36,189 nucleotides of DNA, taken from positions 1 through 36,189 of the forward strand of contig CACNCK010000015.1 in NCBI GenBank assembly GCA_902618945.1. The letters run 5' to 3'. Both the position numbers and the translations under genes were made by a program. The number at the start of each line of letters is the position of its first letter. Positions within the stretch are counted from its first letter, which is position 1. Below are positions 5,237 through 36,189 of the stretch, piece by piece. Under the pieces are notes generated by a model, which made no database searches, had not been told where the DNA came from, and saw only the letters and a list, made by a program, of their open reading frames with translations. Origin of the DNA: an uncultured SAR86 cluster bacterium. Lineage in GTDB: Bacteria; Pseudomonadota; Gammaproteobacteria; Magnimaribacterales; Magnimaribacteraceae.

Positions 5237-5986
5237 TTATTGTGAAATTAAAAAAATACCTCTACCAATAAAAACTGCTCCTACAGAAAGGACAATTCGT
5301 TGAGTCCATCTGAAAAAAATTTCATCATCTATTATATCTAAAACCTTCTTACCAAGAGTAGTACCTACTACGGAAAAAAATATTGCTAAGAGCAAGAATA
5401 TAGGTTCAGGCCAATTTTTTAGACTATATGTCAACAATCCTCCAAAAAAAATAATTTTGGAAATATGTCCAATAGTTTGTGCTACTGCCTTAGTGGCAAC
5501 GACTTGATGTCTCGTCATATCTACTCTTTGAAAGAAAACATCTAACAAAGGACCGCCAACACCAGCTACTAAGTTTGTTAGAACCACTACGCAACCTGCT
5601 AAAACTCCCGTACCTGCTTTTGTGATATCCAGAGCAAGTTCTTTTGGGACTATCCATGCAATATAAGGCAATAGTCCTAATGCAAATATTATTAAGATTT
5701 GACTAGGTTCGAAAGCTATAAAAAATAGAAAGATTAAAGCTATAGTACTGCCCAATAGCAGCATTGAAATGATCTTCCAATTGATATCTGTTCTATTGAG
5801 CCATGCTCTATATCCATTTGATGTTGCTTGAATTAGACCATGAAGCACCATCGCAGGTCCTACGGAAAGGAAACTAATCAATATACCCATAAGAATAAGG
5901 CCACCGAGCATACCAAAAATAGAGGATAAAAAAGCTGTTGCCAAGGTTGCAAATAGTATAAAAATGAGAATTAAATCTAATTCCAT
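5237..5986 (-). CDS. TauE/SafE family sulfite/organic-anion exporter
   Basis: A 249-residue polytopic inner-membrane protein with about seven or eight hydrophobic helices. It has the repeated glycine-rich start typical of TauE/SafE (DUF81) permeases: ATAFLSSIFGMLGGLILMGIL in the first half and LAGCVVVLTNLVAGVGGPLL in the second. Family members export sulfite, sulfoacetate or other small anions or take up related compounds. Its ATG is immediately adjacent to the stop of the upstream GST (5987), and a 32-bp gap separates it from the SDR. With an aminotransferase two genes upstream, export of a sulfonate or carboxylate product is conceivable, but that is inference. Confidence 0.82.
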   Translation of the reverse strand: MELDLILIFILFATLATAFLSSIFGMLGGLILMGILISFLSVGPAMVLHGLIQATSNGYRAWLNRTDINWKIISMLLLGSTIALIFLFFIAFEPSQILIIFALGLLPYIAWIVPKELALDITKAGTGVLAGCVVVLTNLVAGVGGPLLDVFFQRVDMTRHQVVATKAVAQTIGHISKIIFFGGLLTYSLKNWPEPIFLLLAIFFSVVGTTLGKKVLDIIDDEIFFRWTQRIVLSVGAVFIGRGIFLISQ

Positions 5987-12775: not shown

Positions 12776-13534
12776 TTAGATATTGATTAACTTTTCCTGA
12801 ATAACCTGAAAAGCTTTCTTGTTTGCATTAATTATTACCTTCATAGGTGGAGCCTCCTTACTGATATCACCCAGCTCATACAAGGCGATATGTATATCGT
12901 CATGATAATCTACATTTTGCATCTCCTTTAGCCACTTTCGTATATTAGGATATGGCTCAAAATTATAGACATTGGTAAACATACTTTGCAGTTGGCCTAT
13001 CTCAACATATGCCGAGATATCAGCAATTGTCATACTATCTCCGATCAAAAATCTTGAGTCTTTTAACCAGCCAGTTTCTATTGCCTCAAAAGCTTTTTCT
13101 ATATTAGATTTAGATGTGATTAAGAATTCTTCTGAAAAGTTTAAGTCTTTTCTGACTTTAGGGGCAACAAGACCTATTGAAGCTTCTCTCACATTTCTGT
13201 GATGTAGATGTAAATAAGAATCTACTTTTGCTCTTTTTTCTGGATTAACTGGATATAAATCATCCCAATTATATTTATTACACAAGTAACACATAATGGC
13301 ATGCGATTCTGATATGACAAATCCTGTATCTGGATCCTCTAAACTCGGAATAGTCCCGGTAGGAAACTTTTTCAAGAAGTCAGGATGACGACTTCCACCT
13401 TCTGATGAAGAACCTGGGTTTGTTAACTTCAACTCAAAGGGAAATTTCTTTATTAACATCAACCACATTACAGCTCGAACGGGTTGTGAAAAAGGAACTC
13501 CATAAATTAGAATATTTTTATTCGTTTCAGCCAT
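12776..13534 (-). CDS. Theta-like glutathione S-transferase
   Basis: A 252-residue GST. The N-domain ILIYGVPFSQPVRAVMWL places Ser16 where theta-class enzymes carry the catalytic serine. It is followed by TIPSLED (cis-Pro63) and the Glu77 contact in ISESHAI (75-81). The C-domain begins with theta-like YLHLHHRNVREA and contains RFLIGDSMTIADISAYVE. Theta GSTs often act in dehalogenation, ether cleavage or peroxide reduction. It heads a tight GST-SDR-OYE set (8-bp gap to the SDR). A ribosome-binding site AGGGAG precedes the ATG. Substrate unknown. Confidence 0.85.
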   Translation of the reverse strand: MAETNKNILIYGVPFSQPVRAVMWLMLIKKFPFELKLTNPGSSSEGGSRHPDFLKKFPTGTIPSLEDPDTGFVISESHAIMCYLCNKYNWDDLYPVNPEKRAKVDSYLHLHHRNVREASIGLVAPKVRKDLNFSEEFLITSKSNIEKAFEAIETGWLKDSRFLIGDSMTIADISAYVEIGQLQSMFTNVYNFEPYPNIRKWLKEMQNVDYHDDIHIALYELGDISKEAPPMKVIINANKKAFQVIQEKLINI

Positions 13535-33162: not shown

Positions 33163-33564
33163 ATGAATCAAGCAGCACTTTTAACACCAGTATTTATATT
33201 AATACTATGGACCTTTGCTATCACCGCAATTATGGCCTACGGTCGAGTAAAATTTACAAAAGATCCACAGGATGCAGCTCACACAAAAGATTTAAAAGGA
33301 TTGATGCCTGCTTGGGTTGAGAGAACTTCAGATAACTATAATCATCTTTTTGAACAACCCGTGGCTTTTTATGTTGTTACTTTATCGATTGCACTAATCA
33401 ATAATATTGAACCTTTGATGGTTCAATTAGCATGGGCATTCGTTGCAGTAAGAATAGTACATTCACTTGTTCAGCTAACTATAAATATTGTCTTACTGAG
33501 ATTTGTTATTTTTGCAATTGGTTGGTTAATTATTGCCTATATGGCATTTTCTCAACTCCTGTAA
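33163..33564 (+). CDS. MAPEG family membrane protein
   Basis: A 133-residue inner-membrane protein with four helices. The cytoplasmic loop after helix 1 ends in DNYNHLFEQPVAFYVVTLSIAL, matching the family block NxFExPVxFY. Later helices carry VQLAWAFVAVRIVHSLVQLTINIVLLRF. MAPEG members include microsomal GST-type and leukotriene synthases that use glutathione at the membrane; bacterial versions are mostly uncharacterised. GGAGAGG lies about 4 bp before the ATG, and a TACAAT -10 (33136-33141) may be the promoter. It may serve membrane glutathione chemistry alongside the soluble GSTs. Confidence 0.85.
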   Translation: MNQAALLTPVFILILWTFAITAIMAYGRVKFTKDPQDAAHTKDLKGLMPAWVERTSDNYNHLFEQPVAFYVVTLSIALINNIEPLMVQLAWAFVAVRIVHSLVQLTINIVLLRFVIFAIGWLIIAYMAFSQLL

Positions 33565-34553: not shown

Positions 34554-35201
34554 TTAGTTAAGAAGTTTACCCATCCTAAATTCTATTGGCACTCCAAATT
34601 CAGCTGGTTTTGGAGCCTTCGTTTCAGCAAGTACTTCTAAACCAAGGGAACGATAAAATCCCACGGCGGGGTTATCGGATAGAACATCAAGTTGAAATTC
34701 TTGATAGCCAAGCTCTTTAGCTTCCTCAAATAAGTACTCCATCATTGAGTAACCTACTCCTTTACCTCTCGCTTCTGGTTTTACTGCCAAGGCATGAACA
34801 TAAAAGGTATTAGAATAGATTACGGGATTTAACCAACTGGCTAATTTTGCCCTTTCGGTAACACCGGCTATCTCTTCAGTAGTAACTTCATCAGCTTTTA
34901 ACATTTCTTCCCATAAAGGTCCTCCTGCCCTGATGCGTTCTCTGTATTTGCCTCCATTAAAAGCAATTGCAACTCCAAGTAATTCACCTTCTTCAATGCT
35001 CAATATTGCCGAGTCAGAACTAAAAAGTGTACCAGGAGTTCGCCATAAGCGTTGTACCCAAGCATCAAACAGGGATCGACGTTTCATGTAGTATTCGTAA
35101 GACACTGGTCCTGTTGACCAAGCTAATTCAGGGATTTCATCGGCATACAATTCTACGAGTTCGCCCTCTGCTTTGATGATATCAATATTCTCTTTATTCA
35201 T
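34554..35201 (-). CDS. GNAT family N-acetyltransferase
   Basis: A 215-residue acetyltransferase. The acetyl-CoA motif A reads VHALAVKPEARGKGVGYSMM, with RGKGVG at 145-150. It is followed by LDVLSDNPAVGFYRSLGLEVL, the typical motif B with Asn for the amide contact. The N-terminal half is longer than in minimal GNATs, and the C-terminal strand ends with EFRMGKLLN. It would move acetyl from acetyl-CoA to an amine. It ends near a window of + strand text without genes. The start lies only about 10 bp from the duplicated guaA 3' sequence, and no clear ribosome-binding site is seen. Substrate unknown. Confidence 0.85.
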   Translation of the reverse strand: MNKENIDIIKAEGELVELYADEIPELAWSTGPVSYEYYMKRRSLFDAWVQRLWRTPGTLFSSDSAILSIEEGELLGVAIAFNGGKYRERIRAGGPLWEEMLKADEVTTEEIAGVTERAKLASWLNPVIYSNTFYVHALAVKPEARGKGVGYSMMEYLFEEAKELGYQEFQLDVLSDNPAVGFYRSLGLEVLAETKAPKPAEFGVPIEFRMGKLLN

Positions 35202-35211
35202 AATTCATTTT

Positions 35212-35224
35212 ATTCCCACTCAAT
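35212..35224. repeat. Outer att-like copy of ATTCCCACTCAAT
   Basis: Reads on the minus strand as ATTGAGTGGGAAT plus A, coding IEWE and stop like the displaced end of a guaA gene. It lies about 10 bp from the GNAT start. Confidence 0.85.
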
Positions 35225-35318
35225 GAGTAATACCCTCTGAAACCCTTTGTTTATAGTATTTTCAAAAAAGTTTCTATCAAGGAGATTATATATTTTTTTT
35301 TGGAGTGAATAGTTGAGT

Positions 35319-35356
35319 CTGACACAGAAAGTTGTGTCTCCCTGTGTCAGTTTTTT
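35319..35356 (+). terminator. Hairpin plus T-run inside the candidate element
   Basis: On the plus strand CTGACACAG (35319-35327) pairs with CTGTGTCAG (35342-35350), followed by six T. GACACA (35321-35326) can instead pair with TGTGTC (35333-35338), giving two mutually exclusive stems. No plus-strand gene precedes it. Confidence 0.55.
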
Positions 35357-35436
35357 AGAACATCAGAAAATGGTTTTGAGATGAGTTCGATTAACTTGTG
35401 CTTATGTTTTGCAGTAAGTGACCAAACTTTGCACTA

Positions 35437-35509
35437 AAGTTTGTATCTACAGAACACTAATCAAATAAGAATAAGGGTATTGTCATAAGTTTGTATTAAG
35501 TTTGTATCT
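35437..35509. repeat. Three AAGTTTGTAT direct repeats
   Basis: AAGTTTGTAT occurs at 35437-35446, 35487-35496 and 35498-35507; the first and third extend by CT and are followed by similar AGAAC text. An adjoining AAACTTT/AAAGTTT dyad spans 35424-35442. Confidence 0.75.
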
Positions 35510-35547
35510 GAAGAACCCCTATTTTATATGGGTTTCAGAGTCACCCT

Positions 35548-36189
35548 TCATTCCCACTCAATTGTAGCTGGTGGTTTACTAGAAATATCATAAGTTACCC
35601 GAGATACTTCAGGAATTTCATTGATAATTCTATTAGAAACTTTTTCTAAGAAAGTATGAGGGAGTTTAGCTGACTTAGCTGTCATAAAATCTATAGTTTC
35701 AACTGCTCTTAGGGCAATGACATATTCATACCGCCTAGAATCCCCTACTACTCCAACGGATTTAACCGGTAAAAATACTGCAAAAGCTTGGCTTACCTTT
35801 TCATAATAGCCGTCTTTAACCAACTCACTAATAAAAATGTCATCGGCTAACTGAAGGATTTTTATATAAGGTCTTTTAATTTCACCAAGAATTCGGACAC
35901 CTAAACCTGGACCTGGAAAAGGGTGTCTAAATAATATCTCTTTTGGTAAACCAAGCTCTAAACCAATCTTTCTGACTTCATCTTTAAATAGATCCTTTAA
36001 GGGCTCTATCACAGGGAGATTAAGATAACTCGGCAGACCTCCTACATTGTGATGAGATTTTATTACATGCGCTGACCCATTCTTTGTGCCAGCTGATTCA
36101 ATAACATCAGGATAAATTGTTCCCTGTGCTAACCATTGAATTTTTGTATTTCTTTTTGCCTCTTTAAGAAAGACATCTATAAAAGTTTT
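35548..36189 (-). CDS. guaA: GMP synthase (glutamine-hydrolysing), C-terminal part
   Basis: 213 residues of the C-terminal ATP-pyrophosphatase and dimerisation domain; the N-terminal glutaminase and the P-loop lie outside the window. The frame is open at the right edge, entering as [14 protein letters not shown]. Recognisable blocks are [61 protein letters not shown] and the terminal PPATIEWE. GuaA aminates XMP to GMP using glutamine, completing guanine nucleotide synthesis in the cytosol. Its 3' end is duplicated 338 bp downstream, a sign of insertion. The internal Met at 36012 is not the start. With GuaC in the window, both arms of GMP interconversion are present. Confidence 0.96.
35550..35562. 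repeat. guaA-side att-like copy of ATTCCCACTCAAT
   Basis: The last codons of guaA (IEWE, stop TGA) on the minus strand; exact match to 35212-35224. Confidence 0.85.

Follow-up and report, generated by a model that had tools for sequence, protein, structure and literature searches.

The window, by which is meant the whole stretch of DNA analyzed here (36,189 bp), is one entire contig of assembly G000 (1.37 Mb, 81.6% complete), which represents a member of the SAR86 cluster. It ends in the 3′ part of guaA, a minus-strand ORF at 35548-36189 that is truncated by the contig end and has the C-terminus KPPATIEWE-stop. An exact pair of ATTCCCACTCAAT lies on the same strand at 35212-35224 and 35550-35562, with a spacing of 338 bp from start to start. 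In the guaA direction the 13-mer reads ATTGAGTGGGAAT and spans the final four codons of the gene and the first base of its stop. The coordinates bear out the original prediction that the guaA end is exactly duplicated in direct orientation. The ORF stops at the inner copy, which had been taken for the true gene end, and the outer copy encodes IEWE-stop in its reading frame on the same strand, as had also been claimed. The following features were distinguished:

35548-36189, minus strand: 3′ part of guaA (GMP synthase), the target gene, cut by the contig end (ORF, guaA matches)
35550-35562, minus strand: inner core copy ATTGAGTGGGAAT, the guaA end, attL-type junction
35212-35224, minus strand: outer core copy ATTGAGTGGGAAT, attR-type junction, Glu-stop retained
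35402-35562, minus strand: left module, 161 bp, with core, inverted-repeat arm, arm-type repeats and leader
35530-35540, minus strand: left arm of the 11-bp terminal inverted repeat, CTCTGAAACCC
35235-35245, minus strand: right arm of the 11-bp terminal inverted repeat, GGGTTTCAGAG
35498-35507, minus strand: arm-type repeat ATACAAACTT, copy 1
35487-35496, minus strand: arm-type repeat ATACAAACTT, copy 2, 11 bp from copy 1
35437-35446, minus strand: arm-type repeat ATACAAACTT, copy 3
35285-35375, minus strand: middle segment, of which two copies flank a cargo gene in genome G150 (comparison with G150)
35319-35350, no strand assigned: hairpin CTGACACAG...CTGTGTCAG within the middle segment, unchanged in genome G108
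35212-35280, minus strand: right module, 69 bp, ending in the outer core
34554-35201, minus strand: GNAT acetyltransferase gene, chromosomal flank beyond the outer core (Pfam Acetyltransf_1, 7e-13)

The exact 13-mer occurs three times in the whole assembly, as the pair in the window and once on contig C19, and the reversed pattern, used as a control, does not occur in it. With up to two mismatches, four copies were found in the window against 1.63 expected, and 7 of 100 shuffles reach four, which is near chance; the signal therefore lies in exactness, position, strand and recurrence. The copy on C19 (12627-12639, L050) immediately precedes the start of a thrH-like (HAD-type) gene, with no unit seen there, and is possibly a secondary site.

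Both modules recur in other genomes, the left one at 88% identity in G010 and G054, 83% in G107 and 88% in a Glaciecola MAG (L272), and the right one at 86-90% in G070, G091, G047, G160, G098, G065, G106 and others. Once excised and joined end to end, the unit would have its inverted-repeat arms 13 and 12 bp from GAGTGGG. The unit has no ORF above 24 aa, in agreement with the earlier judgement that it is too short for an integrase. Rfam gave no family at curated cut-offs on 34900-35800 (two matches, both far below them), and a promoter and terminator scan gave nothing exceeding chance. The RNA folding z-score was -1.54 on the plus strand and -4.15 on the minus strand; the latter is attributed to the hairpin together with the terminal inverted repeat, and no RNA gene is deduced from it. 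A MAPEG-family gene in the chromosome flank of the window (33163-33564) has a 74% relative that is cassette cargo in G034 (L051:3765-4169).

guaA loci of the order

A guaA query matched 34 of the 41 genomes searched first (G000 and 40 relatives), and several of the 41 have a further core behind guaA, at varying distances. In the whole order guaA was matched in 153 of 203 genomes and 137 loci were read, 132 of them countable after five short loci without a hit had been dropped. A further same-strand TTGAGTGGGA is present within 6 kb behind guaA at 59 of the 132 loci, as one copy at 38, two at 16, three at four and four at one. The first 77 loci were picked partly for showing left ends and 60 more were added afterwards; further cores occur at 38 of the 75 countable loci of the first set and at 21 of 57 in the later set, which was not chosen for left ends. 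Within 6 kb behind the 137 guaA genes (744,246 bp), TTGAGTGGGA has 86 same-strand copies and none on the opposite strand, as compared with seven copies together for three other guaA 10-mers per locus. The gene's own end deviates from TTGAGTGGGA at 17 of the 137 loci.

The inserts bounded by these cores are different and are stacked up to four deep. Genome G054 has five further cores in 13.1 kb, the last of which (at 13074) is probably due to chance. In the first set of stretches, 68 of 70 extra core copies keep the Glu codon and the stop in frame, as would be expected if guaA has to be able to use every cassette end as its own terminus.

It is hardly credible that the copies arose by chance or by local tandem duplication of the guaA tail. 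The 13-mer is short, its mismatched copies in the window are near chance as given above, and a genuine tail duplication exists in G174, but the strand bias of 86 to 0, the conserved stop, and the cross-family units and insert-free sites described below speak against both. Two guaA C-terminal matches are present in some genomes, namely G174 (L139, G174:C2), G160, G099, G112, G129 and G181; in G174 the tail is tandemly duplicated, the first copy ending early and the second being intact.

The window unit was found elsewhere at full length in G108, a genome of another family, with 93.7% identity against only 69.6% for guaA, and its left 278 bp in G150 (94%). Other pairs of genomes share units in the same way. 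For example, the unit of G008 and G109 is identical at 582 of 582 positions (guaA 71.9%), and that of G054 and G107 is 97.8% identical over 2.6 kb (guaA 68.3%). Contamination is unlikely for these two pairs, since each junction includes the host's own guaA. The array of G108 does not follow guaA, which is on another contig, and lies behind a short relic reading MIGIIYDASSKLMVTIEWE-stop. This relic of a guaA tail carrying tandem cassettes is on the reverse strand of L120 (G108:C1), at about 5520-5590. Besides G000, a class-wide search with the unit in 369 sampled genomes gave only two 31-bp hits.

Sites with and without insert can be paired by their flanks. In G144 and G155 guaA is followed at once by the flank that in G153 and G028 lies beyond the last core, with 88-92% likeness over some 400 bp beginning at the first base, and flanks shared from the first base likewise pair G122 with insert-free G152 and G016, and G034 with insert-free G174. 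For G132 and G154, as compared with insert-free G161 and G157, the shared flank begins 15-32 bp past the core of the occupied genomes. A core-like sequence with one mismatch lies 390 to 1468 bp downstream at insert-free G152, G016, G155 and G161, and the insert-free site of G174 sits behind the second, duplicated guaA tail; G144 and G157 have neither feature. The GNAT flank of the window also lies behind other inserts in G012 and G017. The empty sites that were to be looked for exist for other flanks, but the guaA loci compared gave none with the GNAT flank of the window. The gap behind guaA is not single-copy sequence in all relatives, and the 13-mer is present in relatives.

Cassettes, arm-type repeats and integrases

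Core-to-core units (67, from 40 array stretches, first locus set only) were compared in size and content; they include one with a chance outer core (G054 at 13074) and exclude the G108 unit, the core of which is decayed. Their length is 119 to 5493 bp with a median of 1240 bp. ORFs of at least 70 aa are absent from four units, single in 39 and two or more in 24, and 82 of the 109 ORFs run in the guaA direction. Pfam covered 84 of the 109 ORFs (near-duplicates merged to 95, 11 of the shortest left out) and gave 71 families; among the 25 families listed, nine match more than one ORF and none more than three. Phage integrase and serine resolvase were each found in two ORFs, which are adjoining genes in G041 and G055, and integrase is absent from 65 of the 67 units (HMM scan, ORFs of 60 aa or more). 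In each of the two complete units that bear an integrase, the serine resolvase gene comes immediately after it (L137:13622-14230, L138:1644-2249).

The ends of the units carry short repeats. A 9-bp direct repeat at a period of 11 bp is present at 43 of 65 right ends, or 21 of 34 after merging of related ends, as compared with at most 3 of 65 at other periods and 3 of 177 internal stretches. At left ends the periodicity is less sharp, with periods of 11 bp in 17 of 65, 10 bp in eight and 12 bp in 10. The repeat motif varies between units, and a matching pair at both ends occurs in 14 of 67. These repeats are read as putative arm-type sites of different integrases that have one common core.

The mostly one- or two-gene units, the prevailing guaA-directed orientation of their ORFs and the few integrases in the arrays would all suit an integron-type system with IntI and attC sites. 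Such a system is nevertheless very improbable here, because the units are bounded on either side by 13-bp direct repeats, many of them have left-end modules, arm repeats are present, and the integrases behind guaA are of the phage type; the one tyrosine recombinase found in the 81.6% complete G000 assembly is Xer-like.

In the scanned SAR86 stretches integrases were found in G006, G041 and G055 only, and relatives of the G006 integrase in six of the 203 genomes, G006 included. Together with the Glaciecola MAG, these three genomes have integrase-bearing elements at guaA, that is, fuller islands of the kind that were to be looked for. Five integrases have R265, R380 and Y412 in common, which we take to be catalytic residues. 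G000 has one tyrosine recombinase found in its 81.6% complete assembly, of Xer-like size and score. With so few integrases found, the helper may be rare, passing, or missed in incomplete assemblies.

Movement by host XerC/XerD, as in IMEX-type elements, instead of by a dedicated integrase would accord with the 29 of 41 genomes that have only Xer-like tyrosine-recombinase matches (10 have others and two none). It is improbable, since a dedicated integrase is indicated by the arm-type repeats and by the relatives that have both an integrase and matching left ends; the core, moreover, is presumably unlike a dif site.

A phage helper was considered as well and is unsupported by the searches of IMG/VR and phage records: one weak relative of the integrases was found in IMG/VR, and the G055 integrase matches none of 50,697 phage records. 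The left-end pattern found 66 stretches in IMG/VR with a single core each, and no array was seen. In L180, L193, L196, L204 and similar stretches an IIEWE-stop core is followed by a terminator-like AAACCCTCTG hairpin; these viral contigs are perhaps prophage ends at guaA in other bacteria.

History of the 338-bp unit

The closest form with cargo is in G150. There guaA (ending ATCGAGTGGGAAT, 180 of 263 identical) is followed by the left end of the window unit with 206 of 207 bases identical, the sole mismatch being in the ATC codon of guaA. The left end is followed by a 297-aa ORF with no Pfam family, a second copy of the middle segment and the right end of the window unit. The two middle-segment copies of G150 are 84% alike over 90 bp, and deletion between them and between two copies of TTGATACAAACTTT close to the right end would produce the arrangement seen in the window unit. 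The same cargo-less short form is found in G108, which suggests that the cargo was probably lost once, before transfer. The last 91 bp of G108 and G000 are identical at only 73 positions and the outer core of G108 is decayed, so that the right end may have a separate history.

An integrase-bearing relative is found in the Glaciecola MAG, L272, in which the left 161 bp (88%) lie behind guaA and an integrase ORF starts at offset 165. This ORF (83 aa, cut by the contig end) matches the G055 integrase with E 4.8e-33. The left module of the window stops 4 bp short of the position of the integrase ATG. In G054 and G107 a 769-aa cargo ORF begins at the same ATG position, and the likeness to L272 extends some 40 bases into it; it would seem that cargo occupies the place of the integrase gene. 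The window unit has the ends of an autonomous relative without the recombinase; the right end of the L272 element is beyond its contig.

The duplicated cores, the conserved ends, the varied inserts before one flank, the insert-free sites, the near-identical units in distant genomes and the integrase-bearing relatives, all read from sequence, together argue that the unit is very probably a non-autonomous tyrosine-recombinase cassette in the guaA 3′ end, emptied by deletion, transmitted since, and in need of an integrase supplied in trans. The original prediction had offered a mini-element moved in trans and a shrunken island as two options, and both appear to be true.

In the proposed mechanism, a tyrosine recombinase supplied in trans would join the circular cassette (attP) to guaA (attB) inside ATTGAGTGGGA. 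The left end of the cassette would supply the last bases of the Glu codon and the stop, leaving guaA intact, and each insertion would regenerate the site for the next cassette, giving tandem arrays. G147 and G150 deviate from the common core to the left of TGGGA (ATAGAA and ATC, respectively) and not to the right; if the deviating bases are those of the host, the exchange takes place within or after TGGGA. The cassette would formerly have held a cargo gene, as in G150, in a lineage from an element with an integrase behind the left module. The cargo may have been lost through recombination between the flanking middle-segment copies, and a further short stretch through a second event between arm repeats; the unit emptied in this way would then have been transmitted again.

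The unit might instead be a decayed relic, a once-mobile cassette that is now an inert spacer. In favor of this, the repeat scan found no paired repeat at the right end of the window unit, so that this copy may be no longer mobile; the lack of any longer ORF and of a helper integrase found in the incomplete G000 assembly fits as well. A relic is nonetheless unlikely, though far from a negligible possibility, because the cargo-less form is shared with another family at 93.7% where guaA has 69.6%, and the hollow form has thus probably moved after the deletion. Decay is compatible with the transmitted, emptied cassette favored here as regards the unit's past, not its present.

Known systems and loci beyond SAR86

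The guaA 3′ end had been named as an island target of tyrosine recombinases, and GIsul2 provides the precedent, in that its record describes insertion at GAGTGGGA (PMC9376610). According to the same record, GIsul2 is about 15 kb long, carries resistance genes and a gene named resG, and its integrase moves a smaller CR2-sul2 unit, bounded by an internal att site, in recA-deficient E. coli; this movement requires the integrase and the att sites (PMC9376610). As far as GIsul2 is described there, the window unit resembles it in lying in the guaA 3′ end within GAGTGGGA with direct-repeat flanks, and the two complete integrase-bearing SAR86 units, with a serine resolvase gene behind the integrase, parallel its resG. 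The SAR86 units differ in being 0.1-5.5 kb long, integrase-less in 65 of 67 cases and often stacked, and the window unit is empty.

Additive flexible genomic islands of aquatic bacteria are described in summary as varying by site-directed addition of gene cassettes; from 330 bp upward, they are preceded by repeats of the 3′ end of the target, which is a tRNA gene (PMC10872708, PMC7771536, PMC5217437). On that description, the guaA cassettes likewise vary in content at one locus and have target 3′-end repeats as bounds, whereas their target is the protein-coding guaA, with a stop codon supplied by the cassette. CALIN and MITE-like hitchers, as outlined in their source, are likewise non-autonomous, helper-dependent and with recombination ends kept, and differ in their recombinases and sites (PMC11389934). 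Relative to what is outlined for additive islands, the arm repeats, matching integrases, cross-family units and cargo loss are worked out here.

Tycheposons as originally described are said to be 4-200 kb long and tRNA-bound. The window unit differs in its 338 bp and in having no tRNA and no recombinase ORF; no tRNA was found anywhere in the window. Tycheposons, so far as the source summarizes them, share with the guaA elements the marine setting, a tyrosine recombinase, cargo and Prochlorococcus among the hosts (PMC10872708).

A pattern scan of named genomes found 118 stretches, of which 80 loci were listed. At least 27 of the loci listed are from Prochlorococcus, including two pairs from the same genome; at least 10 Prochlorococcus loci have two or more cores, and the guaA locus of MIT 9302 has three. 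Glu-stop is kept in 43 of 43 cores of the listed Prochlorococcus loci, which the scan pattern favors, and in 13 of 13 core copies outside the scan pattern among the loci listed. A related integrase is present in at least two Prochlorococcus loci. L256, L275, L294, L297, L302 and other Prochlorococcus loci, that of MIT 9302 included, have guaA-end copies in tandem that belong to a separate end family (AAACCCAGT...). Among the loci listed from beyond SAR86, stretches of 120-205 bp resemble SAR86 cassette ends. They are left ends in the single-cell genome of an alphaproteobacterium (L306) and in the MAGs of a gammaproteobacterium (L264), a member of the Pseudomonadales (L295) and Glaciecola (L272); a second Pseudomonadales MAG (L293) has such a stretch at a right end.

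A limited literature search (titles and abstract openings) found no guaA cassette arrays in SAR86 or Prochlorococcus. What is new is the integron-like scale: across SAR86, a protein-coding gene is the site of cassettes that mostly hold one or two genes and seldom an integrase, and Prochlorococcus has similar arrays.

A broader picture can be proposed tentatively, with chances a little short of even. The guaA 3′ end may be an integron-like shared cassette port of open-ocean bacteria, used by several integrases with different arm codes and one core (GAGTGGG). Mostly integrase-less one- or two-gene cassettes would be exchanged among SAR86 families, with other gamma- and alphaproteobacteria, and also with Prochlorococcus, which has an end family of its own. 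The cassettes would stack, the first being read from the guaA transcript and each bringing a replacement guaA stop. Cargo would be swapped into the integrase slot or lost, and hollow cassettes would still travel.

In sunlit ocean waters SAR86 bacteria belong to the most abundant groups, and their genomes are small, with few known mobile elements. With a fixed port downstream of an essential gene and near-identical cassettes across families, gene exchange in streamlined cells becomes directly testable. The locus with three cores in Prochlorococcus marinus MIT 9302, which we take to be a cultured strain, makes the question accessible at the bench, and the hollow unit of the window indicates how small a transmissible cassette can be.
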